Of a stretch of DNA of 64,000 bases, positions 21,517 to 57,332 are shown piece by piece. Within the stretch, counting starts at the first letter, position 1; every line of letters starts with the position of its first letter. The DNA is taken from positions 1 through 64,000 of the forward strand of contig NZ_BMIK01000021.1 in the NCBI RefSeq assembly GCF_014642075.1. The letters run 5' to 3'. The notes below the pieces were generated by a model. The model did no database searches. It saw nothing but the letters and a program-made list of their open reading frames with translations, and was not told the origin of the DNA. The position numbers and the translations under genes were made by a program. Origin of the DNA: Parapedobacter defluvii. GTDB lineage: Bacteria > Bacteroidota > Bacteroidia > Sphingobacteriales > Sphingobacteriaceae.

Positions 21517-24417
21517 CTAATCATCCTCGGCAGGGACATCAATGCCTAAAAATTCCCGATAGGGATCGCCCGGATACAACACCGCATCCGGATTGTGCCG
21601 GAAGGGTACATCGGGATTGAACAGCTCTTCCAGCGTCTGCCGCAGGAAATCAGTAAACTGCGCTTTGATGTTTTCCAGCTCGGCATCCTCCGCCACATAC
21701 CTGCCGCGACCGCTCATGTAGAATAAGGGCCCCTCCTTGCGAAGCTTACGTGCAATATACAGATTCGGTTCAACGCTGCGCCTGCCTGTCACCTGCTCGT
21801 AGACATAGGTATAAAACAAGGTCTGGATCATGGCCTTATTGCTCTTGGCCGATGCCGGAGCAAACAGCGTATCCAACCCATGGAACTTCACTTCATCGCG
21901 CCCGGTCTTGTAGTCAACGATGCGTGTCTTGCCATTTACCTCATCCACCCGGTCTATAATACCGTAGAGTACGATTGTCCGCGATTCACCTCCTACCGTA
22001 ATCGGGAATGAGACGGAGTAATCCCGTTCATTTTCCAGTTCCACAATCCGCAGTGGCGCTACATGCGTCGCATCATAATGCAGGAACACCGCCGCATATT
22101 CTTCGGCTACCTTGAGCAGGATGCGCTGCATGCTGTTTGGTGCCTGGATCCTTCCGGCTTCGCCGTACAGCTCTTTGGACAGTGCCTCCAAACAGATTTG
22201 CGGCAGTGCCTTGATCTTCTGCAGGATACTGTGTGGGGCGATCGTATCGTTTTCAGCTTTCAACTGTTCATATACGTCCTGCATCACGGCGTGTACAACC
22301 GTACCCAGACGATTCATTTCAAACTCTTCCGTAAGCTTAGGTGGCTCCTTGATACCCGCTATGTATTTGAGGAAAAACAAGAGAGGCGACTGCAAATAGG
22401 TGGTCAATGCCGAAGCCGACAGCTTCGGGCGATCGGGGTTGGTATCATCCAGGTAGCGGCTCAGTTTGTCCCATACGGCTCCGGTTTTTTGCAAGCTAAG
22501 CGAAGGTGGTGCAGGGATCGTCTTGATGGGCTGCTGCTGATTGTGCTGCTGGAATGTAAACCGGCTTTCGAAGGCCAACTGTCGGACAAACCGGCTCACT
22601 TCGCCGCTGTTGCTATCATCTACCACGGCATTGTACACCACGGTGATGTGCCGTGGGTATTGCAGCAGACGGTAAAACAGGTATGCAGATAGGGCATCCT
22701 GGTTTTCCAGTACTGGCAGGCCATGGGCACGCCGGATGGAATCGGGTATGAAAGTGTGGGCCACCGTAATATTGGGCAGTTTCCCTTCATTTGCTCCGAT
22801 GAGGTAGATCTCATCAAAGTCAAGGCAACGGCTTTCCAGCAGCCCCATGATCTGCACACCCTTCAATGGTTCACCCTCGATGGGAGCCGATATCCCCTGG
22901 AGTGACTTGCGCACCAGCGAACACAAGAAAGGCATCGATAGCTCGGGGTAGTGTGCCAGCCCCTCCTGTAACAGGTTGAGCGCCTTCTTAACGGCAAGGA
23001 TCAGCACGGCTTCGATGTGACGGAGGCTTTTGGCGTTTTGACGGTGTCCCAGCACGCCATCCAGCAGGGCATGCAACGCTTGGAGCACAGCTTCATTACC
23101 GCTACGCGGAATGAAAAACTCCGGATAACTGCCTGTTGTCAGCGACAGTTCGGTAGCAGGCACCTCCAGCCATTCGTTGGCGTTGATATTGCCTTGCAGG
23201 TTATCGCGTTCTTCCGGTGATATACCACTGAGGGGGTGGGCCAAAATTGCTTCTACGTCGAGGTGATGTACGGATCGACCCTGGTTCGCAGCCAATTGCT
23301 GCTGGATGCCCAGCCATCCGTCCAGGTATCCAAATAGCGTGGATTGCGACAATGGATACCCCATCGTTACGTTGAAATCGATGCCATCGGGTAGGCTTTG
23401 CAGTACCGGTACCAGCAAGCTTTCATCGGCCAGGATAATAGCCGTGTTCGTTGGGGCCTCCCGATCAGCGGGCTGGCCTTCCAATAGAGTCGACAGCAAT
23501 TTGGCCTGAGCGACTTTGCCCGAAGCAGCTACCAGCTCGATACGATCCGTTTTTGAGCCCAGTGCGGCCGGAAATTCACCAAGCGCATTGTGCAATCCAT
23601 ACTGCCCCACATTTTTCCGGAGGAAAAGGCCAGCCTCCTGCAGGTCATCGTCAAGGTAATAGCTGTCAGCGTCGAAGTAGAAAAGTGCCTTCCCAGCTTC
23701 CTGCCATTGTGTGAAGAGCTTCACCTCACAGCGGTTGAGTGCGTTGAACCCCACAAACGCTACCTGCTTATATGCTGAGATAAAGTCGGGATGGTCTGCG
23801 CGGCCTTCTGCCAGATCGCGGTAGTTTCCAGCCGTAGTAGTCAGCTTCTGCTCGCGCAGTTCCGCTTTGAACCGTTGATAAAGCGTGGGCAGGCGTCCCC
23901 ATAGCTGGAGAAATTTCTGCTGAATAGCTGTCTGCTTGCCCACGGAAAAGGACTCCCAAAACTGGCGCATGAAGCGTTGCTGGTCGGCCGACAGGTGAGG
24001 GAAGCGCTGTTGAAGCAGGGCGATGTCACGCAGCTCAGCATAGACCGCTTCCGGCGCTACGAGGTCGTAGTCCAGTTGGGCGAAGTCACTTAAGATGGTT
24101 TCAGCCAGCGGGTAGAACTCATCCGGCGTCTCCTCCGGACGTCCCTCCTCGCGGAGCGCCGCATTGTGCAACCGGTGCAGGATGAAGAATTGCGCAAGTG
24201 GACTGGCCTCCGGCACAGCGGCCGACTGTCGGAAAAACTCCTGGACAGTGAAAAACGAAGGACTCCAAAGTGGCCTGCCCGCCAGGTCGGCCAGGTGTTT
24301 CCGCAGGAATACGATGGGCCGCTTGTTGGTCAGCACCACGGCTACATCCTTCAGGTCGTCGCCAAACCGGGACAATAAATCGGCAGCAACTTGTTGGAGG
24401 AACGGATCATTTCTCAT
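21517..24417 (-). CDS. addB: AddB-like PD-(D/E)XK nuclease of a recombination helicase-nuclease
   Basis: A 966-residue protein with the AddB layout: a helicase-like N-terminus without a working Walker A (VVLTNKRPIVFLRKHLADL) and a C-terminal PD-(D/E)XK nuclease domain. The nuclease core is seen in LSASALTTYLQSPLLFFLKYIAG, then YGIIDRVDEVNGKTRIVDYKTG (catalytic D...DYK). AddAB and RecBCD process double-strand ends for RecA loading. AddB usually carries an iron-sulfur cluster bound by four Cys around the nuclease; I do not see a clear set of these here. The 4-bp overlap with the downstream-listed, upstream-transcribed helicase gene shows they are one operon. Confidence 0.87.
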   Translation of the reverse strand: MRNDPFLQQVAADLLSRFGDDLKDVAVVLTNKRPIVFLRKHLADLAGRPLWSPSFFTVQEFFRQSAAVPEASPLAQFFILHRLHNAALREEGRPEETPDEFYPLAETILSDFAQLDYDLVAPEAVYAELRDIALLQQRFPHLSADQQRFMRQFWESFSVGKQTAIQQKFLQLWGRLPTLYQRFKAELREQKLTTTAGNYRDLAEGRADHPDFISAYKQVAFVGFNALNRCEVKLFTQWQEAGKALFYFDADSYYLDDDLQEAGLFLRKNVGQYGLHNALGEFPAALGSKTDRIELVAASGKVAQAKLLSTLLEGQPADREAPTNTAIILADESLLVPVLQSLPDGIDFNVTMGYPLSQSTLFGYLDGWLGIQQQLAANQGRSVHHLDVEAILAHPLSGISPEERDNLQGNINANEWLEVPATELSLTTGSYPEFFIPRSGNEAVLQALHALLDGVLGHRQNAKSLRHIEAVLILAVKKALNLLQEGLAHYPELSMPFLCSLVRKSLQGISAPIEGEPLKGVQIMGLLESRCLDFDEIYLIGANEGKLPNITVAHTFIPDSIRRAHGLPVLENQDALSAYLFYRLLQYPRHITVVYNAVVDDSNSGEVSRFVRQLAFESRFTFQQHNQQQPIKTIPAPPSLSLQKTGAVWDKLSRYLDDTNPDRPKLSASALTTYLQSPLLFFLKYIAGIKEPPKLTEEFEMNRLGTVVHAVMQDVYEQLKAENDTIAPHSILQKIKALPQICLEALSKELYGEAGRIQAPNSMQRILLKVAEEYAAVFLHYDATHVAPLRIVELENERDYSVSFPITVGGESRTIVLYGIIDRVDEVNGKTRIVDYKTGRDEVKFHGLDTLFAPASAKSNKAMIQTLFYTYVYEQVTGRRSVEPNLYIARKLRKEGPLFYMSGRGRYVAEDAELENIKAQFTDFLRQTLEELFNPDVPFRHNPDAVLYPGDPYREFLGIDVPAEDD

Positions 24418-27400
24418 ATGGCTACCAATTTCTTGAGTTCTCCATAATACACATATCCTTTTACATTCGGCATGCCCATTTCACGAAGCACTAGCTGATA
24501 ATCCGCTACCTGCCTCAGATGGGCCTCATCCTCGTGCTGCGTGAATTTGAAATCCAGCACGATGGTCTCATCCGGCCGGATCAACACCTTATCCGGGCGC
24601 AGTGTACGGCCACTGGGCAGAATGATGCTCCGTTCGTTCCAGTGTTGGTAATCACCCTTAAACCATTGTGCCAGTTGCGGATGGTGCCAGGTAGCCAACG
24701 CAAGCGCCAGGACGTCGGCCCGTTCTTCATGGCGAAGCCACCCCTGTGCCTGCAGGGCATCCAATCGTGCCTCCAACTCCGTGGCGGCGGTTGTCTCGGC
24801 CATCAGTTCATGCAACAGCCGGCCATGGCGCTTGGCTGCGTCCAGCCGTACGACATCCAGCTCGGTCTGTATTTCGGGGCGGGCCAGTTCTTCCTTCATC
24901 CGGGTGGATGCCGGGTAATGGCTGAACGACCATCCGCTCGGCAATGGTTTCTGCTCCCTAAGCGCGTCTGTTTCCGTACTATCTCCCAACTGTATGCCAC
25001 CGTGGAAGGCGATATTCAGCTCATCGGCAACGTTGGGCAATACTTCGAGGAGCAGGTCGCTGGCCAGCAGGGAGCTGATTTCGCCGTCGCCCTTTTTGCC
25101 AGGTGCTGTAATGTACAAGTGCTTACGCGTACGCGTGGTGGCCACATAGAGCGTGTTGAGTGCGTCCATGTAGTTGAACAACATTTCCTCGAAATATGCT
25201 TGGTAAAGACGTGACTTACCGAGGTCGCCTTTATACTTCACGGGTGTTTTGCGCAGGAGCGCATAGGGAGTATCTTCGGTGCTTACCCAGAAGTTGCTGT
25301 TAATACGTCCGTCGATAGACCAGCTGCAAAACGGGATCATCACGACATCAAACGCCAGCCCCTTGGACTTGTGGATGGTCAGTACCTCCACGGCATCTGT
25401 CTTGCCTGCTGCGGGCAATGCACGGTCGATGCCTTCTTCTTCCCAATACGTCAGAAATGCCGGAATACCCCGCTCTCCGTTGGCAGTGAAAGCGGCAACG
25501 AGATCGCGGAAAGCCAGCAGATAAGGCAGGCTTTCTTGCTTCGCTTGCAGCCCATAAGCCACGATCAGTGATTCCACCAGTTCGGCCAGCGGGAGCTGCG
25601 ACCACGCGTCCCAGTTCGTGCAAAGGGGTTCGGGCAGCAACCCCGCCAGTTGAATCGGTCTGCACGTGCGCACACGCACCCAGTCATCGGGCAAGACCGC
25701 TTCCCCGTTATCCGCCAGTTGGCTATGCAGATGGATGCAGTTGGCCAGGTATAATGCAGTATCAGGCAGCTTGCCTACCAGCGCACGCAGCGTGTCAACC
25801 AGCAGCCGGATGGCTGGATGGTTGGCCAATGCCAACGCATCACCTGAGATGACGTCAAAAGCAGTTCCCGATTCCCGCTGCCGATCCAGCAGGTATTGGA
25901 TGACCTCCCGTGCCTCGTTGTTGGTACGGACGAGGATACCAATCTGGCCAGCCTGATAGATGCCTGATGATAACCATCCGGTGAGTGTATCTGCCAGTCG
26001 GGTAAGCGCCTCTTCTTTCACGGCACTCGCACGATGGTTGTTGCTTCCAACGTCAATAAAATCCACCTGCACTTTCCCGCCCTTCCGCGCAGATGCCGGC
26101 AATTGCTGTCGGCTGTCCGCATACGCCCGGATGAGCGTATCGTGGTTGCCGGACGGTTGCCACCACCGTTCGTATTCTTCCTCGCCCAGCTCGGATAGGA
26201 TGCGGTCGTTCAGGCGTTGCTGCAACCATCGTGGTGCGTGTTCAAATACCAGGTTATTAAAAGCCACGATGTATTCAGAGCTGCGGTAGTTGGTTTCCAG
26301 CGTCGCATGCTCGATGAGCGACGACGTATCCGCCGTATTGAATGCCGTACCGACCTCCTGCTCAGCCTGATCCAGCAGGATACGCCAGTCGCCGTTGCGC
26401 CAGCGGTAAATGCTCTGCTTCACGTCGCCCACGATGAGGTGTTCACTCTGTGTACCTGTGGCATTGCCCATGGCATTGATCAGCAACGGGCGCAGGTTGT
26501 CCCACTGTTTCCGCGATGTATCCTGGAACTCGTCAAAGAGAAAATGCCGGAAGCGGTTGCCCGTTTTCTCCCAGATGAAAGTCGGGTCGCCCGACTCATT
26601 GACACCGATGTTGTTGAGTAGGATCTGTGCATCGCTGATGAGCTGAGCACCATTATCCCGGCGCCATTCCGCCAGCAGCGTGCTCATCTCCTTGAGCAGG
26701 CGCAGGTAGTAGAGATTCTCGTCAATGGCCTTGGCAAGGTAATAATCGGGGCTTTGTGCAGCATACTGTTCGTATAGCTGTTCGAGCAATGGATTCAGAT
26801 CCCGATATAGCACAGTCACCTCGCCCGTAAGACCGCCTTTCTGCCACTCATCCGGTGCATGGATGTACTTCTCCAACTTTTTGATCACATCGTGTGGATT
26901 CTGTGCGGACAGACTACCCAGCTTGCCCAATTGGTTGCGCGACTTTCCCACCAGATCCATCACGTCCACGCCCGAGGCAGCGAACGTATCGGCAGCGGTT
27001 TTGAGCAATTGCTCGAATGCATCTTCAAACTGCTTGATGGTTTCCTTGCAGTAACTATCAAGGCTGGCAAATAACTCCTGCTCCGGAATGTCCGATATCG
27101 CTTTATCGAAATCCTGGAAATCCTCCTTGAAAATTTCCGACGCGAGGTCGCTCAGCGCCCAGCGGTAATTCCAGCTTTCATCCCGATCGATCCGCATCTG
27201 CGCATAATCCATGATCCATCGCAGCAGGTCGGGACGTTCGTCGAGCAGTCGGTTGAGGCGCAGCACTAGATCCGCTTTTACCTTGCGGATGTTCATCTCC
27301 AGCTTATATCCTGCATCGATACCCAACTCGAAGGTAAAACCCCGGATGACCTTCTGTGTGAAACCGTCGATGGTGCTCACCGAGAAATGACCGTAATCGT

Positions 27401-27719
27401 GCAGTACTTTGCGGTATACCGCGGCCGCACGTTGCCGCAGGGAAAAGGCATCCCATTGAGGATAAGCACCCAATAGAATCTCGCGGTATCCACCGGCGGC
27501 GTCTTTCGTTGAACCATCTCCTGTAGCAAGTGCCTCTAATACCGTCAGGATACGCCCTTTCATCTCGGCCGTCGCCTTATTGGTGAAGGTGATGGCCAAA
27601 ATCTCCCGGTACTTGTTTTCTCCCGAAAACAGCAACGTCAGGTAATGCGCTGTAAGGCTGAAGGTCTTGCCGGACCCCGCCGATGCTTTGAGTATTTTAA
27701 GTGGAGGTATCGTAGGCAT
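24414..27719 (-). CDS. addA: AddA-like UvrD-family helicase/exonuclease
   Basis: A 1101-residue superfamily 1A helicase, the motor of the AddAB-type end-resection complex. Motifs in order: Walker A KASAGSGKTFSLTA (about 10-23), AITFTNKATAEMK (Ia), LFDEFQDTSRKQW (Walker B), VGDVKQSIYRWRNGDW (III/IV), LETNYRSS, VLTIHKSKGLAFDVVMIPF (V) and TLYVATTRTRKHLYI (VI). The C-terminal nuclease domain shows DKVLIRPDETIVLDFKFTQ, with the acidic-x-K core (DFK). It is transcribed first, and its stop overlaps the addB start by 4 bp. The upstream 400-bp gap contains phased A-tract repeats and no exact minus-strand promoter box. Confidence 0.92.
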   Translation of the reverse strand: MPTIPPLKILKASAGSGKTFSLTAHYLTLLFSGENKYREILAITFTNKATAEMKGRILTVLEALATGDGSTKDAAGGYREILLGAYPQWDAFSLRQRAAAVYRKVLHDYGHFSVSTIDGFTQKVIRGFTFELGIDAGYKLEMNIRKVKADLVLRLNRLLDERPDLLRWIMDYAQMRIDRDESWNYRWALSDLASEIFKEDFQDFDKAISDIPEQELFASLDSYCKETIKQFEDAFEQLLKTAADTFAASGVDVMDLVGKSRNQLGKLGSLSAQNPHDVIKKLEKYIHAPDEWQKGGLTGEVTVLYRDLNPLLEQLYEQYAAQSPDYYLAKAIDENLYYLRLLKEMSTLLAEWRRDNGAQLISDAQILLNNIGVNESGDPTFIWEKTGNRFRHFLFDEFQDTSRKQWDNLRPLLINAMGNATGTQSEHLIVGDVKQSIYRWRNGDWRILLDQAEQEVGTAFNTADTSSLIEHATLETNYRSSEYIVAFNNLVFEHAPRWLQQRLNDRILSELGEEEYERWWQPSGNHDTLIRAYADSRQQLPASARKGGKVQVDFIDVGSNNHRASAVKEEALTRLADTLTGWLSSGIYQAGQIGILVRTNNEAREVIQYLLDRQRESGTAFDVISGDALALANHPAIRLLVDTLRALVGKLPDTALYLANCIHLHSQLADNGEAVLPDDWVRVRTCRPIQLAGLLPEPLCTNWDAWSQLPLAELVESLIVAYGLQAKQESLPYLLAFRDLVAAFTANGERGIPAFLTYWEEEGIDRALPAAGKTDAVEVLTIHKSKGLAFDVVMIPFCSWSIDGRINSNFWVSTEDTPYALLRKTPVKYKGDLGKSRLYQAYFEEMLFNYMDALNTLYVATTRTRKHLYITAPGKKGDGEISSLLASDLLLEVLPNVADELNIAFHGGIQLGDSTETDALREQKPLPSGWSFSHYPASTRMKEELARPEIQTELDVVRLDAAKRHGRLLHELMAETTAATELEARLDALQAQGWLRHEERADVLALALATWHHPQLAQWFKGDYQHWNERSIILPSGRTLRPDKVLIRPDETIVLDFKFTQHEDEAHLRQVADYQLVLREMGMPNVKGYVYYGELKKLVAI

Positions 27720-33967: not shown

Positions 33968-33983
33968 AGTAGTCGTCTAAAGG

Positions 33984-34015
33984 CATTAATTTCAGTGCAA
34001 TATCGAAAATTAATG
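33984..34015 (-). repeat. Inverted repeat upstream of HTCS gene
   Basis: Perfect 9-bp arms CATTAATTT (33984-33992) and AAATTAATG (34007-34015) with a 14-base loop. They lie in the 72-bp gap between the small lipoprotein stop and the HTCS start. It could be an operator for autoregulation or an mRNA hairpin that lowers readthrough into the regulator gene. Confidence 0.4.
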
Positions 34016-34039
34016 GGTTATTCCCAACCGTTAACGCTT

Positions 34040-34573
34040 CTACTCAATGGTCAGTGTACGACGGAAGGCCGTTGAAAAGATATCGACACGATACTCGGGT
34101 GTGATGTTGTCTTCAAAATTAATCTCTACCATCCGGGTACCGGGTTCGGGATTATTGAGCAGCTTGACATACACGGTATCCTTGGTTTTTACCGCCTGCG
34201 GAAACACCAGGGAATATTTACCGTTATCACCCGGTTGCAGGACATTCCCTTCTTGATCTACAATCTGGAAGTCCACGCCGACAACTGCGGGATTAGGCAC
34301 ATCCGGTGTAACGACTGAATAATGGGCAACCGCATCGTAGTTCCGGGTAAATTCGGAATAAAACTGTACCGGAAATTTAATCAGCTCTGTTTGACTTCTA
34401 TTTACCGTAATACCGCTGTTGTTGTTGGGTACATATACAATGTAATAGTGATGCTCGTATTCAGGCAGCCCTGCAGGGTAATCTTTGTCTTCACAGGCAA
34501 AAAACAATCCACCGGATAACAGCAGCAGCATAATCAATATATTTTGTGTATTCATTAGAAAAAATTTATTCAT
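34040..34573 (-). CDS. Small PUL lipoprotein (DUF4843-like)
   Basis: A 177-residue predicted surface lipoprotein in a PUL. The leader MLLLLSGGLFFAC gives the lipobox, followed by EDKDYP. The body is beta-rich with PNNNSGITVNRSQTELIKFPVQFYS and a later VGVDFQIVD...GNVLQPG. This resembles the DUF4843/DUF1735-type Ig-like lipoproteins encoded after SusD in many Bacteroidota PULs. Such proteins are thought to be glycan-binding or accessory surface proteins (SGBP-like), but this one is short. The ATG at 34552 is an alternative start. A strong 11-bp hairpin lies between susD and this gene. Confidence 0.75.
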   Translation of the reverse strand: MNKFFLMNTQNILIMLLLLSGGLFFACEDKDYPAGLPEYEHHYYIVYVPNNNSGITVNRSQTELIKFPVQFYSEFTRNYDAVAHYSVVTPDVPNPAVVGVDFQIVDQEGNVLQPGDNGKYSLVFPQAVKTKDTVYVKLLNNPEPGTRMVEINFEDNITPEYRVDIFSTAFRRTLTIE

Positions 34574-34613
34574 TAGTTATTTGCTTTCAATGGCATTATT
34601 CAATGACGCGATA

Positions 34614-34643
34614 ATGAAACCTGTGATTCCGCAGGTTTCATTG
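34614..34643 (-). repeat. Intercistronic hairpin after susD
   Basis: Perfect 11-bp arms AATGAAACCTG (34614-34624) and CAGGTTTCATT (34633-34643) with an 8-base loop. They lie 16 bases after the susD stop and before the small lipoprotein gene. On the minus strand no T-run follows, so it is more likely to protect the susCD mRNA 3' end or cause partial termination than to be a full terminator. Confidence 0.6.
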
Positions 34644-34658
34644 TTCAATTGTTTATGA

Positions 34659-39559: not shown

Positions 39560-42500
39560 TCAAAGCCATAATAACGGGTATCGTATGGGTAGATTTCGGA
39601 TCACTTCTTCTTCAGTAGGCCGGTGTTCAAGAGACACCCAGGTATGCAAAAGCTCCTGATTGCCATAAGCCAGGGCACCCAGGAAAAGGAAGGGTTGGGC
39701 TACCGGCCAGTTATCCCAATACATTACATCCCGAGCGTACGGCCACCTGCCTTTTTCTTGTACAAAAGGCAACATATATTGTATACCCTTACCAATTGAA
39801 CGGCCATCGGCCATTCCGTCATGCCAAAGATCCGTTCCGGATTTTGGAAGCAGGGAACAAATCGCAGCCATGGCATCCAGATTGAAAAGAGAATATCCAT
39901 AGGGCTTTGTACGTTCGATTTCTAGCGGAAAGCTTCCATCTTTGGCCATTTGTTGGGGAAGCAATACCGTTTTATACCGTTCTGCGCATTGGCGTATCAG
40001 TTTGACATTCCCGGTGTAACTGGCAAAGGCTGCCACCTGCATGACCCAGCATGTTCCGTGGTTATTTTTTGCGTTCATCTCCTCGATACCATAAGGGTGT
40101 GTCGTTAACCATGCCAGGTAGTCTGCAAACCACTTTTTTGTTCCTTGGCACACCGATTTGCCGAGTAAGCCCGCCTCTTCCAGTATGCCCAGTGCTTTGG
40201 CCACTTCGATCAGGTGAATGGTATCAATGATTCCAATGCCACGCCCCGTAACCCGGCCTTTGATAGCCTGCGCATACAGGAGTGATGGGTTCATACGTGT
40301 ATCGGCATCGATAAACCAGGCAGACACATGCCGGAGCGCATGTTGTACGTATTTCTCATCGCCGGTAAGCTTCCACGCAGACACCAATGCACCGACGATG
40401 CGACTGAAACGGATCATTGCCAAGCGATGGTCTACAAAGTTATCCGGATTGGAAAGCCCGTCCCTGCGGATATAAGGCCCATCAGGATGATCGGGGTCGG
40501 GCCACCAATAGTCGCCCTCTGAATAAAAATCATGTTTGCCACCGGCGCTCCGCACGGCAATGCTTGCTGTTACAGTGATGGGGGGCTGGGTGAGCGCCCA
40601 AGCGGCGTCCTTCAAGGTTTGGTCGTGCAGCGTTGCGGTAATCACGTCTTCCACATGCTGCCTGGCAGCGGTAAAGTCCAAGGGCAGGATGGCCGTTTCT
40701 AGATTATCTGCGGCCGCTACTGCCACCATCCGGTTACCTGTACGTTTTATGCGGATAATTGCCCGGCCATTGTATGCCTGTACTTTACGCGAGCCATCTG
40801 ATGTGCCGAGATCGGCCAGTAGCTTCCCGTCGCCCGCCATCGAAAAGTAAATATAATTTGCGGCATCAAGGCACAATATTCCCTGGTTATCACGCAATGT
40901 CGCCTGAAGTGTAACCGTGTCAATCTTCGCGTCGAGCACCTCAAGCTGTATGGATGCAGGATCGGACCACTTGGCGGTCTGGTAAATCTGGGTAATGCTA
41001 TCTCTTACCGTGATTCCGTCTTTGTGTGCAAGTACTTCCAGCTTATTCCTTCCTTCGCGCAAAACAACCATCCACCGGAGACCTGCAGCGGGAAAATCCT
41101 GGCTGTTTCGTTTGCGAATACCCTGACTCACGCCGTTGACGAAAAGTTCCGCTTCTCCACAGTTGGAATAAACCTTCACCATCTTTTCCTCACCCTGATT
41201 GCCCCACCTTACGGGCCAGCTGTGTCCATAAATATGAGCCATGGGTTTTTCAGACCAGTAGGACTGGAAGATATAATACGATTCCTTTTTGTTGAAATTG
41301 CGCTCCACAACTCCCTTTTGGTTGACATAAGGCACGGGATTTTCCGGGCGGATGGGGGTGGAGAAATCCTTGAATGTCCAATAGGCAGTACCCGTGAGCC
41401 AAGGCATGGTTTCCTGTTCCTTAAGATGCCAATCGATCAGGTTGCAAATGTAACTCTCACTCCAGTCGCCATCCTTGGATACGCGTGCCGGACCACCGAA
41501 CAGCGATGCGTCACCTGCACGTTCGTCAGCTGTGGTACTATGCATGACCTCCGACAGTCCCTTGTCGGGTGTTTCCGAATGCCGCCGTGCATGACTATCG
41601 CCCCCCCATTCCACATGGAGGAAGTGCTCAACCTTATTGAATTCAGCCTCGGTCGCTGTTTTGTAATCCGTATAGATTCCCCGGTACCAACCTGCCCAAA
41701 TGGAGGGCGAATAGACATCTACAACATCCTTACAAAAGTCGCATCGCCGAATCGCTGTTTTGCGTAGCGGATCCAATTGATGGGCCAGGTCGTTCAACTC
41801 CTTCATGAAGGTACGGATTTGCAGCTGGTCAAACCTTTCAAAATCTCCAGGCCAGTCATTTTCATTGCCCAGCCCCCAGACAATCACCGAAGGATGATTA
41901 TAGTGCTGCTCAATCATGTTGGTAAGCATCCGGCGGGCCTGCTGTTTGTACTGCTCACCGCCAAGTCCTCCGCGGCACCATGGAATCTCTTCCCATACGA
42001 GAATACCCAAACTATCACAAGCTTCCAATACAATACGCGATTGTTGGTAATGACCCAAACGGATGAAATTGACTCCCATCTCCTTTATCAGACGCATTTC
42101 CTGCCAAATAAGCTCCTCTGTCATTGCAGCAGCCACCCCCGCATGGTCTTCATGGCGATGGGTACCCCGCAATAATAACCGCTCGCCATTGAGATAAAAC
42201 GGACCTTTTCGGGCAAATTCAAACCGGCGGAACCCGATCCGTTCAGCATGAATACAGGTGTCTGCCCGGGTTGCTAGAACAACCCGTACCGTATACAGCC
42301 GGGGCTGATCGGGCGACCAAAGCATCGGCTGTTTAACTGTAAAACCTGCAAAGTCGATTTGATTGCCGCGTACGTCGATATGCTGCTGCTGTGTTTCGAC
42401 GAGCCTCCCTTCGGCATCAAGCAACTGTACCGTGGCTTCGGCATCCGATAGTGCAGCAGGGTTGTAGAGACGTGCACTTATCTTGATTTCACCCACTTGT

Positions 42501-43135
42501 CCCCCTGCATCTGTGGTGGCAGTGGCAAAAACCTTTTCTATAGAAAGCTGGGGCACATACACCAGGTTGAGATAACGGTATAGTCCACCATAGACGTTAA
42601 AATCTGACAGATCTGATGGAATCAGTTCTACGTCACGGGAATTGTCACACCGGATCGATAGGGGAATCCGGCCGTTGAATTGCTTCGTATAAGCTTCTGT
42701 GGCTTGAAAAGTTTTCACTGCATCGGTAATATCCACAGACCATTCATCGTACCCTCCTATGTGTTCGCCAACTTTCTGGGTATAGATATACACTTCCGTT
42801 TTTTGACCCGAACCTTCAAAATGTAACAGCGTCCGCCCATTTTGATAGGGATTGGCAATTTCCAGGGATGTGCGATACCATCCTGGGCCTTGGTAATAAT
42901 TGACATCTGGTGCTACGGCGTCCGCGGCGTTAAAGCAGTGAGGCAACGTGACAGGCTTCCAAATGGGAGAGGCTTCGGGATCACCCGGTTTATAGGGGCG
43001 TACAGACTCCCATATCCCGCCCAGATCCTGACGTACAAACTCCCAACCATCGGTTAGACGATGGCTTTGTTGGGCTAACGAAATGGATGCAAGGCAAAGT
43101 TGAAGCAATACAGTAAGGAGTCGAATACGTTTCAC
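39560..43135 (-). CDS. GH2 glycosidase fused to alginate-lyase-family (PL38-like) domain
   Basis: A 1191-residue secreted protein with two catalytic parts. A signal peptide (1-21) precedes a glycoside hydrolase family 2 unit: sugar-binding domain (about 25-205), Ig-like domain (207-305) and TIM barrel (308-640). The acid/base is E425 (GLGNEND) and the nucleophile E509 (HVEWGG). DUF4982-like and Ig-like linkers follow (about 640-820). Residues about 826-1180 match the Alginate_lyase family: DYWWPDPDHPDGPYI near 877, DGLSNPDN, and NNHGT (N1024-N1025-H1026, the expected catalytic Asn/His). The natural pairing is a uronate eliminase with an exo-acting glucuronidase or galactosidase. PL38 is my best guess; PL5-like is possible. 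First gene of the PUL. Confidence 0.92.
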   Translation of the reverse strand: MKRIRLLTVLLQLCLASISLAQQSHRLTDGWEFVRQDLGGIWESVRPYKPGDPEASPIWKPVTLPHCFNAADAVAPDVNYYQGPGWYRTSLEIANPYQNGRTLLHFEGSGQKTEVYIYTQKVGEHIGGYDEWSVDITDAVKTFQATEAYTKQFNGRIPLSIRCDNSRDVELIPSDLSDFNVYGGLYRYLNLVYVPQLSIEKVFATATTDAGGQVGEIKISARLYNPAALSDAEATVQLLDAEGRLVETQQQHIDVRGNQIDFAGFTVKQPMLWSPDQPRLYTVRVVLATRADTCIHAERIGFRRFEFARKGPFYLNGERLLLRGTHRHEDHAGVAAAMTEELIWQEMRLIKEMGVNFIRLGHYQQSRIVLEACDSLGILVWEEIPWCRGGLGGEQYKQQARRMLTNMIEQHYNHPSVIVWGLGNENDWPGDFERFDQLQIRTFMKELNDLAHQLDPLRKTAIRRCDFCKDVVDVYSPSIWAGWYRGIYTDYKTATEAEFNKVEHFLHVEWGGDSHARRHSETPDKGLSEVMHSTTADERAGDASLFGGPARVSKDGDWSESYICNLIDWHLKEQETMPWLTGTAYWTFKDFSTPIRPENPVPYVNQKGVVERNFNKKESYYIFQSYWSEKPMAHIYGHSWPVRWGNQGEEKMVKVYSNCGEAELFVNGVSQGIRKRNSQDFPAAGLRWMVVLREGRNKLEVLAHKDGITVRDSITQIYQTAKWSDPASIQLEVLDAKIDTVTLQATLRDNQGILCLDAANYIYFSMAGDGKLLADLGTSDGSRKVQAYNGRAIIRIKRTGNRMVAVAAADNLETAILPLDFTAARQHVEDVITATLHDQTLKDAAWALTQPPITVTASIAVRSAGGKHDFYSEGDYWWPDPDHPDGPYIRRDGLSNPDNFVDHRLAMIRFSRIVGALVSAWKLTGDEKYVQHALRHVSAWFIDADTRMNPSLLYAQAIKGRVTGRGIGIIDTIHLIEVAKALGILEEAGLLGKSVCQGTKKWFADYLAWLTTHPYGIEEMNAKNNHGTCWVMQVAAFASYTGNVKLIRQCAERYKTVLLPQQMAKDGSFPLEIERTKPYGYSLFNLDAMAAICSLLPKSGTDLWHDGMADGRSIGKGIQYMLPFVQEKGRWPYARDVMYWDNWPVAQPFLFLGALAYGNQELLHTWVSLEHRPTEEEVIRNLPIRYPLLWL

Positions 43136-50415: not shown

Positions 50416-50454
50416 GCGTTAGATTTTCGATTTTCGATTTTAGGCGTTAGATTT
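50416..50454 (+). repeat. Short direct repeats GCGTTAGATTT with GATTTT[CA] units
   Basis: GCGTTAGATTT is repeated at 50416-50426 and 50444-50454. Three tandem 7-bp units (GATTTTC, GATTTTC, GATTTTA) lie between and overlap the first copy. It lies in the 60-bp gap before the GHL10 gene and looks like slipped-strand duplication. Confidence 0.5.
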
Positions 50455-50461
50455 GCTGTGG

Positions 50462-52036
50462 ATGATGACATTGGAGATTAGTACTATTCGTATTTGCGGG
50501 GGCTTGCTTCTTATTATTTTCTTATCGCTCTTATTTTTCCCAGGCTATGGTATTCCCAATCCACCCCTGGACGTATTGCCCAAACGCGAACTGCGTGGGG
50601 TCTGGATCGCAACGGTAGTCAACATTGACTGGCCGTCTGCCAATAACCTGACCACTGCACAACAAAAAGCAGAGCTGATTCAGCAGTTAGACAATCATCA
50701 ACGGGCGGGCATCAATGCCGTCTTACTCCAAATACGGCCTTCTGCCGATGCATTTTATGCGAAAAGCCGGGAGCCGTGGAGCCGCTTTCTTACTGGGAAA
50801 CCGGGGCAGCAACCCAATCCCTTCTACGATCCACTTGAATTTGCCATTGAGGAGGCACATAAACGCGGGATGGAATTACACGCATGGATCAACCCATACC
50901 GGGCCACTTTTGACCTGGTATCCACCAATACAACCGCTGATCACATTACCCGTCAAAATCCCGACTGGTTTTTCGTCTACGGAGGAAAAAAGCTGTTTAA
51001 CCCGGGCTTACCCGAGGTAAGGGAATACATCACCGGGATTGTGATGGACATTGTACGAAACTACGATATTGATGGCATCCATTTCGATGATTATTTCTAT
51101 CCGTATCCGGAAAGCGGCAAGCCGATTCCAGACACGGAGACTTTCAGAAAATATCCAAATGGCTTCCGGGACGTGGGCGACTGGCGCAGAAACAATGTCA
51201 ATCTATTGATCCAGATGGTTTCGGACAGTGTGCATAAGGAAAAAAAATACATCAAATTCGGCGTAAGTCCATTTGGTATTTGGGACAACAAAAAAGACCA
51301 ACCACGTGGATCGGCATCTTCCGGTCTCAGCGGCTACCGGCAACTGTATGCAGATGCACTGAAATGGTTGGAAGAGGGCTGGGTTGATTACATTAACCCG
51401 CAGATCTATTTTCCATTTGGCAACCCTGCAGCTCCATATGAAGTTTTGGCCGATTGGTGGAGCCAGCATGCCAACGGCCGGCACTTTTATATCGGCCATG
51501 CGGCTTACCGTGCCAATGAGAACCGGGAAGGCTGGCGGGAACGCAATCAGATTCCCAACCAGGTACGGTATGCGCGGCAGCATGCCCACGCGCAGGGAAG
51601 TATCTATTACAGTTCCAAACATATCAGCAATAATGCAGCCGGCCTTAGGGATTCGCTGCAATACAACCTGTACCGCTATAAGTCACTCCCTCCCAATATG
51701 CCCTGGCTGGACAGCGTTCCACCCGAACCTCCTTTCGGCTTACTGGCAACTGTTGCCGAAAACCGGACCTCTGTCATTCTCCACTGGCTGCCTTCAGCGC
51801 CTGCAGCCGATGGCGACGAAGCCTACGGGTATGTGGTGTACCGATTCAATGAAGGTGAAGAGCTAAATCTGAACAACCCACAGAACATTCTGTATATTAC
51901 GTATGACAGCAAGCAGCTGACGTATACCGATAACATGACCCGCAGGAATGGCTACTACCGCTATGTAGTAACGGCCATAGACCGTATAAAGAATGAAAGT
52001 ACGCCTTCAAACGTACGGGAAATATATATCGAGTGA
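50462..52036 (+). CDS. Family 10-like glycosyl hydrolase (GHL10/DUF187)
   Basis: A protein of about 524 residues with an N-terminal signal or anchor (ICGGLLLIIFLSLLFFPG) and a GHL10 TIM-barrel domain (about 35-350). Key segments are RGVWIATVVNIDWPS, NAVLLQIRPSADAFY, GMELHAWINPYR, DIDGIHFDDYFYPYP, KFGVSPFGIWDN and WVDYINPQIYFPFG. This is the pattern of the glycosyl-hydrolase-like 10 (DUF187) family, thought to act on peptidoglycan-related or other beta-glycans. A C-terminal FnIII-like domain follows (about 415-524, VILHWLPSAPAADGDEAYGYVVYRFN). The ORF begins at a TTG (50453), but ATGs at 50462 and 50465 fit better. Confidence 0.9.
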   Translation: MMTLEISTIRICGGLLLIIFLSLLFFPGYGIPNPPLDVLPKRELRGVWIATVVNIDWPSANNLTTAQQKAELIQQLDNHQRAGINAVLLQIRPSADAFYAKSREPWSRFLTGKPGQQPNPFYDPLEFAIEEAHKRGMELHAWINPYRATFDLVSTNTTADHITRQNPDWFFVYGGKKLFNPGLPEVREYITGIVMDIVRNYDIDGIHFDDYFYPYPESGKPIPDTETFRKYPNGFRDVGDWRRNNVNLLIQMVSDSVHKEKKYIKFGVSPFGIWDNKKDQPRGSASSGLSGYRQLYADALKWLEEGWVDYINPQIYFPFGNPAAPYEVLADWWSQHANGRHFYIGHAAYRANENREGWRERNQIPNQVRYARQHAHAQGSIYYSSKHISNNAAGLRDSLQYNLYRYKSLPPNMPWLDSVPPEPPFGLLATVAENRTSVILHWLPSAPAADGDEAYGYVVYRFNEGEELNLNNPQNILYITYDSKQLTYTDNMTRRNGYYRYVVTAIDRIKNESTPSNVREIYIE

Positions 52037-54360: not shown

Positions 54361-54521
54361 TTACTCAAAAGGCGGTTACAGTAGCCAAATCGTGAAAAAA
54401 GACAAAAGCTTTTCAGAAAGTGAATCAATAAACGGCTGTAACAAAGCGATTACGATTAAACGTTGCATTGCTGACAGCGTCTTAATTTACTAAATTGTTT
54501 ACACAGATACTAAAATTGACC

Positions 54522-57332
54522 ATGAACAACCGTTATAAACGCTGTTATTTAGTGCTACCTTTCCTTTTCCTTTCGCTGACGGCATTTTCACAACAAGCTA
54601 TACATGGCAAGGTCCTGGATAGCACGGATCATACGGGTTTACAGGGTGCCAGCCTGCGGCTGCTCACCACGCGCGACTCATTATTGGAACAACGGGCTTC
54701 GGGTGCAGACGGCAGTTTTCAATTGAAACAGGTGCCGCCGGGCAGGTATCGCATGCAAGTAAACTTCCTTGGCTACCGACCTGCTTTTTTAGATATCCAC
54801 TTACCATCCGAGGGGCTTACCCAACCGATGAATATCCGCCTCATTCCCGAATACCGGGCATTGGAAGAGGTAGCCATCATTGCCGCCCCACCCGTTGCCG
54901 TGCTCAAAGGAGACACCACTGAATTCGATGCCTCGGCCTTCAGTACCGAGCCCTATGCGGACGCAGACGCGTTGGTTATGCAGATTCCCGGAGTCGAGAT
55001 TGACGAGGAGGGGCAGATAAAAGCACAGGGTGAAGATGTACAGCGAATCATCGTGGATGGCAAAGAGTTTTTCAGTACCGACCCCCGTATCGCGTTAAAA
55101 ACACTACCCGCAGATATCATTTCAAAAATCCAAATCATCGATGAAAAAAGCGAGCAGGCACAGTTTACGGGGTTTGACGATGGGCAGCGCCGGAAAGTGA
55201 TCAATATCGTTACCCGGCCGGATCGCAGGCATGGGTATTTTGGCCGGGCGGCAGGTGGTTACGGAGCCAGCGAACGATACAACACTGGGGGAAACCTGAA
55301 CCTGTTTAACGGTAATAGGCGCTTTACCGTCTTTGCCGTATCGAATAACGTGAATCAATCAGATTTTTCCATGGCAAGTATCGCAGGCGGGGAGTCGGAA
55401 GGCGGGCGTAACAGCCGTGGCGGAAGAAGCCGCGGTAATCCGGAGGGTGGTGGCAACGGCCGGGGAATTAATCAGACGAACAGCATTTCGGCCAACTTCA
55501 ACAACGAATGGCTGGATGAGCGACTGGATTTCAACGCGAATTATGCATTCAATTCCACCCGTAACACGACAAATAGCCTGACCAATCGGGAATACCTGAT
55601 CGGCGCCAATGCCAACCAATTCAACACCCAAAACCAGAAATCAAACAGTATCAACTACAGCCATCGAACCAATATGCGTATCCGCTTCGACATCGATTCT
55701 AACCAGCGCATCGATTTCCGACCCGTTCTGTCCTTCCAGCAAAATAACCGTACGTTATTTTCCAACAGCCACACGCTGTTATCCAACGACGATCCCATCA
55801 ACGCGTCAGAGCGGACCAACGACAATGACAACTTCAATTTCAATTTCAATGGAAGCCTCGACTACCGGCTACGTTTGGGTAAACCCGGAAGGACCGTATC
55901 ATTGAGTGCAAACGGTTCGGCTAATTCCAATAAAGGATTAGCACATACCTATTCGCTCAATGAGTTTTTCGAGTCGCAGACTACCGGTCGCATCGATACC
56001 GTCAGCAACCAAAATAACACGAGCGGATACGGAAATGGGATTACCGGTAGATTGGCTTATACGGAGCCTCTGGGTCCACATAGTGGCTTACAGGCCAATT
56101 ACAGCCTTCGAAATACGGCCAACTATTCTAATAGGGAAACCTTTGAATTTCTGATTGAGACCGGACAACTGGGAGAGCTGGACCGGCAGTTGTCTAACGA
56201 ATTCCGGAACGACTACACCTACCAAAGTGGTGGCCTGTCTTATCAAATTGCCAAGCGAGATTCTTTTCGTTTCGAGGTAGGCATTGATTTTCAGGATGCA
56301 AAGATCAACAACCGCCGTACCTTTCCAGATTCCCACATAGCGGCCAGCCACTTTAGTAGTTACCTGCCCAGCGCCAGTTTTTCTTACCACTTTTCTCGGG
56401 ATAAGGAAGCACAGATCAGCTACAATTCGGCCACCAATGCACCTTCCATTAACCAGTTGCAGGATGTGATTAATAACCAGAACCCGTTGAACATACGTAC
56501 GGGCAATGCTGATTTGAAACAGGAATACGGGCATCGCGTCAACCTTCGATTCAACAGTGTTAAACGGGAAACAGGGAGTAATTTCTCGGCTAATCTGAAT
56601 GCCGAATTTTCCAATAACCGGATTGTGAATTCCACCTATATAGCAAGCAGCGACACACTGATTGCCCCGAATGTGCTATTGGGTGCGGGCGGACAGTTTA
56701 CACGGCCGGAAAACATCAACGGGTACTACAGCGTACGAGTTAATACCACGTATGGCACGCCCATTAAACCGTGGAAAATAAACCTCAACCTCAGCACCAA
56801 TTTATACCAAAACCACGACATCGGATTGCTGAACAACGCGGAAACATACGCTGATTCCTACGGCATCAACCAGCGGATCGGCGCGAACAGTCGTTTCGGC
56901 CCGCATTTGGTCATTGGGCTAAGCTATGTGGGCAATTATAGCATTGTACGGAACAACTCCAATACCGATCTGAGTTACAACTACTACAACCAAATTATCC
57001 GCAACGACCTGTCCTATACGTTTTGGAAGGGCATACGCGTGGCTTCTTCCTTCTATTACAATTATAACCAAGGGCTTGCCGAAGGTTACGACCAACAGTT
57101 TATTCTGTGGAATGCATCGATCGGCAAAAAGCTATTCAAACGGGAGGAGGCAGAGATTACGCTGTCGGCATACGACCTGCTCAACCGCAATACGAACATC
57201 AACCGCAGCATTAGCGAGCGGTATATACAAGATACCCAAAACAATGCGCTTCAACAGTATTTTTTATTGAGTTTTACCTACAACGTAAGGCATTTTGGAG
57301 GGGTCGCTCACCGCAACTTCCCTCCCCGTTGA
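54522..57332 (+). CDS. TonB-dependent receptor-type outer-membrane beta-barrel protein
   Basis: A 936-residue outer-membrane protein. A signal peptide (YLVLPFLFLSLTAFSQQ) is followed by a carboxypeptidase-regulatory-like domain (about 25-105, IHGKVLDSTDHTGLQGASLRLL). A plug-like part follows (MQIPGVEIDEEGQIKAQGEDVQRIIVDGKEFFSTD), then an outer-membrane beta-barrel domain of the OMP_b-brl family, ending in aromatic strands (QYFLLSFTYNVRHF). A Gly/Arg/Ser/Asn-rich stretch lies near 55385-55470 and will be a surface loop. No SusD partner follows, so this is not a SusCD transporter; siderophore, peptide or other import is possible. The 3' end overlaps pncA by 25 bp tail to tail. Confidence 0.9.
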   Translation: MNNRYKRCYLVLPFLFLSLTAFSQQAIHGKVLDSTDHTGLQGASLRLLTTRDSLLEQRASGADGSFQLKQVPPGRYRMQVNFLGYRPAFLDIHLPSEGLTQPMNIRLIPEYRALEEVAIIAAPPVAVLKGDTTEFDASAFSTEPYADADALVMQIPGVEIDEEGQIKAQGEDVQRIIVDGKEFFSTDPRIALKTLPADIISKIQIIDEKSEQAQFTGFDDGQRRKVINIVTRPDRRHGYFGRAAGGYGASERYNTGGNLNLFNGNRRFTVFAVSNNVNQSDFSMASIAGGESEGGRNSRGGRSRGNPEGGGNGRGINQTNSISANFNNEWLDERLDFNANYAFNSTRNTTNSLTNREYLIGANANQFNTQNQKSNSINYSHRTNMRIRFDIDSNQRIDFRPVLSFQQNNRTLFSNSHTLLSNDDPINASERTNDNDNFNFNFNGSLDYRLRLGKPGRTVSLSANGSANSNKGLAHTYSLNEFFESQTTGRIDTVSNQNNTSGYGNGITGRLAYTEPLGPHSGLQANYSLRNTANYSNRETFEFLIETGQLGELDRQLSNEFRNDYTYQSGGLSYQIAKRDSFRFEVGIDFQDAKINNRRTFPDSHIAASHFSSYLPSASFSYHFSRDKEAQISYNSATNAPSINQLQDVINNQNPLNIRTGNADLKQEYGHRVNLRFNSVKRETGSNFSANLNAEFSNNRIVNSTYIASSDTLIAPNVLLGAGGQFTRPENINGYYSVRVNTTYGTPIKPWKINLNLSTNLYQNHDIGLLNNAETYADSYGINQRIGANSRFGPHLVIGLSYVGNYSIVRNNSNTDLSYNYYNQIIRNDLSYTFWKGIRVASSFYYNYNQGLAEGYDQQFILWNASIGKKLFKREEAEITLSAYDLLNRNTNINRSISERYIQDTQNNALQQYFLLSFTYNVRHFGGVAHRNFPPR

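Follow-up and report, generated by a model that had tools for sequence, protein, structure and literature searches.

A fused beta-glucuronidase-type GH2 unit and PL38-type lyase in a polysaccharide utilization locus of Parapedobacter defluvii

A single open reading frame of Parapedobacter defluvii, a soil-type member of the Bacteroidota, encodes both a family GH2 glycosidase and an alginate-lyase-type domain, raising the questions of whether the two are truly joined, which reactions each half is likely to catalyze, and on what glycan they might act together. We addressed these questions within a window of 64,000 nucleotides, the whole stretch of DNA analyzed here, and by comparison with related loci in other genomes. 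The coordinates of all features are collected in Table 1.

Table 1. Features of the fusion gene and its neighbors, numbered from the first nucleotide of the window
Feature	Position	Strand	Basis or remark
GH2 (GUS type)-PL38 fusion gene	39560..43135	minus	1191 aa, GTG start; Parapedobacter defluvii
N-terminal signal peptide, residues 1-21	43073..43135	minus	SISLA/QQ cut, no lipobox; read from translation
GH2 beta-glucuronidase unit, residues 22-819	40679..43072	minus	Pfam; full-length match to 6d7j/6dxu; includes DUF4982 and GH2_C5
E425, GH2 acid/base	41861..41863	minus	aligned with E. coli UidA; invariant in 53 homologs
E509, GH2 nucleophile	41609..41611	minus	aligned with E. coli UidA; invariant in 53 homologs
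N605-Q-K607, NxK uronate-recognition motif	41315..41323	minus	pairs with N-K-K of E. coli UidA; both N and K unchanged in 53 homologs
Linker between both enzymes, residues 820-840 (~20 residues)	40616..40678	minus	fast-evolving
PL38-type lyase domain, residues 833-1191	39563..40639	minus	PF05426, 1.3e-86; 3nfv and BoPL38 by sequence and fold
Y876 (BoPL38 Y91)	40508..40510	minus	alignment, conservation, BoPL38 mutant entries
D892 (BoPL38 D108)	40460..40462	minus	alignment, conservation, BoPL38 mutant entries
Q956 (BoPL38 Q173)	40268..40270	minus	alignment, conservation, BoPL38 mutant entries
N1024-N1025-H1026 (BoPL38 N241, N242, H243)	40058..40066	minus	alignment, conservation; H243 role, PMC13169297
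R1075 (BoPL38 R292)	39911..39913	minus	alignment, conservation
Y1081 (BoPL38 Y298, catalytic tyrosine)	39893..39895	minus	alignment, conservation; role, PMC13169297
SusC-like TonB-dependent transporter, 1039 aa	36334..39453	minus	family profiles; syntenic in fusion loci
SusD-like binding protein, 562 aa	34659..36347	minus	family profiles; syntenic in fusion loci
Putative lipoprotein between SusD and HTCS, 177 aa	34040..34573	minus	translation; other fusion loci have an ORF of similar size here
Hybrid two-component system regulator (HTCS), 1426 aa	29687..33967	minus	family profiles; adjoins fusion in other fusion loci

The initial annotation had described one frame carrying both a GH2 and an Alginate_lyase-type domain; its frame, strand, and length were confirmed, and both domains are complete by Pfam. 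The domain order is Glyco_hydro_2_N, Glyco_hydro_2, Glyco_hydro_2_C, DUF4982, Glyco_hydro2_C5, and Alginate_lyase, with the last matching residues 858 to 1131 (E value, 1.3e-86) over profile positions 5 to 275 of 275. An assembly artifact or frameshift was ruled out as the source of the fusion, as an open frame of ~1195 aa is also present in 11 other genomes from two genera. Residues 648 to 710 and 737 to 814, previously taken for two linker domains, instead belong to the glucuronidase as its C-terminal domains, because the stand-alone beta-glucuronidase (GUS) of Parabacteroides merdae (PDB structure 6d7j) itself includes the DUF4982 and C5 regions and aligns across all of residues 22 to 819. 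The signal peptide has no lipobox, and the protein is therefore likely located in the periplasm; A21-Q22, where cleavage is presumed, is unchanged in 12 of 12 fusions. A model of the full-length fusion reached a pTM of 0.63, too low to place the two active sites relative to each other.

The GH2 half closely resembles beta-glucuronidases. Residues 22 to 819 match 6d7j over its whole length (1205 bits, phmmer against the PDB), and whole-length identity is ~60% to P. merdae GUS and ~56% to Bacteroides uniformis GUS-3 (PDB structure 6d1p). The jelly-roll, Ig-like, and TIM-barrel domains of GH2 all score over their Pfam cutoffs, and in a pairwise alignment with E. coli UidA, E425, E509, N605, and K607 each align with the same amino acid, so the complete three-domain unit with two catalytic glutamates, as first described, holds by both approaches. 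The homologs compared comprised 12 fusions and 41 split homologs. Glucuronidases bind the uronate carboxylate through the N-x-K motif, which galacturonidases may also carry. Because the catalytic glutamates and the NxK motif match UidA and stay invariant, we read the GH2 half, from its sequence, as a uronate-specific enzyme of the GUS type, with a galacturonidase possible. A beta-galactosidase was ruled out by the NxK motif and the similarity to GUS; of the beta-galactosides and beta-glucuronides originally suggested as substrates, only the glucuronides thus agree with the predicted specificity. The fusion carries the sole close GUS in the genome. No paper naming the P. merdae GUS structure entry was found in the literature searched.

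The lyase half was matched by PDB sequence search to 3nfv and to BoPL38 of Bacteroides ovatus (8bdq; E value, 1e-39). Family profile scores were 343 bits for 3nfv, 247 bits for BoPL38 (9e-72), and 24 bits for the PL5 lyase AlgL. An AF2 model of the lyase domain alone (pLDDT 84; Foldseek E value, 2e-15) is predicted to adopt the same (alpha/alpha) barrel fold as BoPL38, with fold matches to 3nnb (Z 32.2, rmsd 3.8, 341 aligned), BoPL38 (Z ~32), and PL5 A1-III (Z ~24). PL5 membership was ruled out by the 24 bits to AlgL, versus 247 to 343 for the PL38-type structures, and by the lower Z; of the proposed "PL38/PL5-type" assignment, the PL38 part stands. The YWWPDPDHPDG and NNHG motifs reported for a full-length Alginate_lyase-type domain are both present. 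So are the lyase fold and catalytic residues on which the initial annotation had made its reading depend, as judged by structure prediction and alignment with BoPL38.

Conservation extends to the putative active site. Y876, D892, Q956, N1025, H1026, R1075, and Y1081 are invariant in 105 distinct homologs, as is the NNH motif; the position of BoPL38 H297 is Gly in the fusion, in 3nfv, and in nearly all of the 105. In BoPL38, H243 and Y298 are the proton-abstracting residues (PMC13169297), and activities known for PL38 cover alginate, glucuronan, and hyaluronan/chondroitin (PMC13027841). By these comparisons the lyase half is of the PL38 type. With the GUS glutamates, the NxK motif, and the BoPL38 active-site residues all kept, both active sites of the fusion appear intact, as had been supposed. 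The fusion is the only PF05426 gene in the genome.

The genomic context is that of a Bacteroidota polysaccharide utilization locus (PUL), based on the presence of adjacent SusC and SusD genes, an enzyme, and a regulator. The gene order in fusion PULs is fusion-SusC-SusD-small lipoprotein-(GH88)-HTCS, and a divergent hflX lies upstream of the fusion gene. The signal peptide and the adjoining SusC, SusD, and HTCS genes agree with the earlier description of a single exported PUL enzyme. GH88 sits between the lipoprotein and HTCS genes in 7/12 fusion loci, including P. koreensis and part of the second genus; it is absent there from the window PUL (33968 to 34658) and from its closest relative. The GH88-like genes of this genome are on contigs C1 and C8, outside the fusion PUL. 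The putative lipoprotein matched no family over the Pfam cutoff and is possibly a surface glycan-binding protein. No obvious surface endo-enzyme was seen in the fusion PUL. GH18 was rejected as a constant partner of the fusion. Elsewhere in the window, two long ORFs (50453 to 52036 and 54495 to 57332, plus strand; 527 and 945 aa) had no NCBIfam match, and a RecB/AddA-like helicase adjoins an AddB-like nuclease (21517 to 27719, minus strand), both far below family cutoffs.

The fusion of ~1195 aa occurs with conserved synteny in 12 genomes, comprising 4 of 9 Parapedobacter genomes and 8 of 94 from a second Sphingobacteriaceae genus; relatives of the window genome include Parapedobacter indicus and P. 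koreensis. No further GH2-PL38 fusions were found among 395 genomes of the phylum and 395 of the class (samples that overlap in part), and an apparent fusion frame of 1219 aa elsewhere turned out to be two genes with one TAA between them. The fusions form one side of a branch in each domain tree (GH2, 100/98; PL, 94/87, a moderate support in a tree where long branches meet), and neither tree places a split copy within the fusion clade. Two independent fusions were considered, as PL domains differ more between the two genera than between the window and some split genes; yet both trees allow a single origin. From these trees, the fusion probably arose once. Values of dN/dS are 0.03 to 0.12 for both domains in close pairs with unsaturated dS, and by this measure both are under purifying selection.

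Between fusion pairs, the linker varies more than either domain. Split GUS genes end, and split PL38 genes begin past their signal peptide, at the position of the fusion's linker; thus, fusion needed only the loss of a stop codon and one signal peptide. Joining might therefore have been a neutral convenience, whereby two independent enzymes use a common signal peptide and transcript but are not functionally coupled, and we give this somewhat less than an even chance. The ease of that step, with split genes often side by side and once in-frame across one TAA, agrees with it, as do the fast-evolving linker and the fusion of PL38 to several other partners. Set against neutrality is the persistence of the fusion, intact in 12/12 fusion genomes of two genera with no split copy in its clade, although this is no proof of coupling. 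Neutrality concerns the benefit of the fusion and can hold together with our preferred explanation of the reactions. The in-frame pair belongs to a genome of another family (G1013; L155, 4589 to 8245, plus strand), where a single TAA lies between the GUS and PL38 genes and a GH88-like gene lies just upstream.

Most relatives make the beta-glucuronidase and the lyase from two separate, often neighboring, genes. Among 80 PL38 loci from named genomes, a GUS gene lies within 10 kb in 33 (two of them fusions), and a gene for a GH88-type unsaturated-uronyl hydrolase is nearby in 55. GH88-type enzymes take off the unsaturated residue left by a lyase, so their frequency supports a working lyase. The proposal that both halves act on one uronate glycan is plausible and is backed by these neighborhoods, in which GUS and GH88 accompany PL38. 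GH95, GH29, and GH31 are found as well in many of the split loci, so that PL38-GUS pairs probably act on glucuronate-containing glycans of more than one kind.

These additional families bear on a different role for the GH2 half, which could take glucuronate side chains or caps off a heteropolysaccharide of complex structure (for instance, an exopolysaccharide or a plant gum) and so expose the backbone to the lyase half. At least the targets of the split relatives with GH95, GH29, and GH31 would be branched and fucose-containing, and P. merdae-type GUS enzymes have large extra domains. However, the fusion PULs contain no fucosidases or GH31, and their recurring partners are GH88, SusC/SusD, and HTCS. 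Moreover, loci with related SusC/SusD (60 to 70% identity; L088 and L051) encode PL14-like or PL6-like lyases next to PL38 and showed no fucosidase, which favors a simple uronate polymer for the fusion PUL. We therefore consider side-chain removal unlikely.

PL38 domains also occur in other fusions. A Chitinophagaceae MAG encodes a GH95-PL38 fusion of 1226 aa (L133, 7400 to 11077, plus strand), 3' of which a GH29 frame runs into a GH88-like part and is followed by another GH29 gene. Two lyase families are combined in one protein, PL8-PL38, in a genome of the window's genus (G028; L042, 7150 to 10416, plus strand). PL38-GH88 (L137, 3296 to 5725, minus strand) and GH88-PL38 (L138, 7872 to 10148, minus strand) represent both domain orders.

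We think it fairly probable that the fusion is a two-headed periplasmic enzyme, derived once from PUL neighbors, for glucuronate-rich, perhaps glucuronan-like, oligosaccharides. HTCS would sense such an oligosaccharide and induce the PUL, and SusC/SusD would import it. The PL38 half would then cut at beta-linked uronate by beta-elimination, giving pieces that start with a 4,5-unsaturated uronate, while the GH2 half would remove saturated beta-D-glucuronate from the original non-reducing ends. The unsaturated ends would be left to a hydrolase of the GH88 type, whose gene lies within the PUL in most genomes with the fusion and outside it in this one. We infer the periplasmic location, the sequence of these steps, and any advantage that tethering may bring. 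The most likely substrate would be glucuronan or another polymer rich in beta-D-glucuronate.

A glucuronate-containing polymer fits better than alginate because GUS removes beta-D-glucuronate. The lyase half could nevertheless be an alginate lyase with an incidental GUS association, as BoPL38, of the same family and with the key residues conserved, acts on alginate. We regard this as very improbable, since it is not evident how an NxK-type GUS would help to remove mannuronate or guluronate, and since GUS-PL38 co-location in ~40% of the 80 loci is far above chance if the other genomes, as this one does, have about one close GUS copy per several Mb. A glycosaminoglycan-like polymer such as hyaluronan or chondroitin, in which PL38 would cut at hexosamine-linked GlcA and GUS would trim terminal GlcA, is also rather doubtful as the PUL target, though less so than alginate. 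RiPL38 degrades hyaluronan (PMC13027841), another genome from the window's genus encodes a PL8-PL38 fusion, 3/8 fusions in the second genus have GH18 next to them, and one further fusion locus has a sulfatase nearby. GH18 and the sulfatase are not conserved across fusion loci, however, and neither a hexosaminidase nor a sulfatase is encoded in the window PUL. These extra neighbors could mean a more complex substrate at some loci.

Several points weigh against the glucuronate-polymer explanation: the alginate activity of BoPL38, the Gly at the H297 position, the lack of GH88 and of an obvious surface endo-enzyme in the window PUL, and the fact that 3nfv, the nearest lyase structure, bears no more than a structural-genomics name. 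Overall, glucuronan-like or glycosaminoglycan-like chains are likelier than alginate, with glucuronate as the sugar shared by both halves.

On a broader and quite speculative reading, to which we assign little probability, PL38 would be a plug-in lyase module repeatedly fused to the next-acting PUL partner (GH2, GH88, GH95, or PL8), and GH2-PL38 would pass new chain ends from lyase to glucuronidase, so that the fused protein and its transporter handle a glucuronate polymer not yet recognized as a common soil substrate. More immediately, the fusion joins two families often annotated merely as "beta-galactosidase" or "alginate lyase" and suggests beta-linked glucuronate as the common element of their substrates. 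A vague annotation thus becomes a testable prediction for glucuronan, hyaluronan, and alginate, and the same prediction reaches the P. merdae-type GUS enzymes and the PL38 lyases whose genes are neighbors in many soil Bacteroidota.

No description of a GH2-PL38 fusion was found in the literature searched, a scope outside which the CAZy and PULDB architecture lists lie. As far as could be checked within that literature, the domain combination is new, while multi-catalytic PUL enzymes are already known. In gut Bacteroidetes, PL17 PULs encode separate GH2 and GH105 genes with the lyase, for a substrate given as unknown (PMC5966431); as here, a lyase, a GH2, and an unsaturated-uronyl hydrolase share one PUL, but the lyase is of PL17 and the proteins are separate. 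P. merdae GUS (6d7j and 6dxu) and B. uniformis GUS-3 resemble the GH2 half, including its C-terminal domains, catalytic glutamates, and NxK motif, but they stop where the fusion's linker starts and have no lyase domain. BoPL38 and B. ovatus BACOVA_01668 (3nfv) share the fold of the lyase half, in which the BoPL38 active-site residues are kept, yet both are single-domain proteins with ~25 to 34% identity to it. The GlucurArabfur beta-D-glucuronidase/beta-L-arabinofuranosidase (NF049877), which we take to be of the BT0996 type, matches the GH2 part distantly, at 140 bits versus a cutoff of 1800. In this PUL enzyme, too, a GH2 beta-glucuronidase is combined with another catalytic domain, but that domain is a glycoside hydrolase where the fusion has a lyase, and the domain order and target differ.
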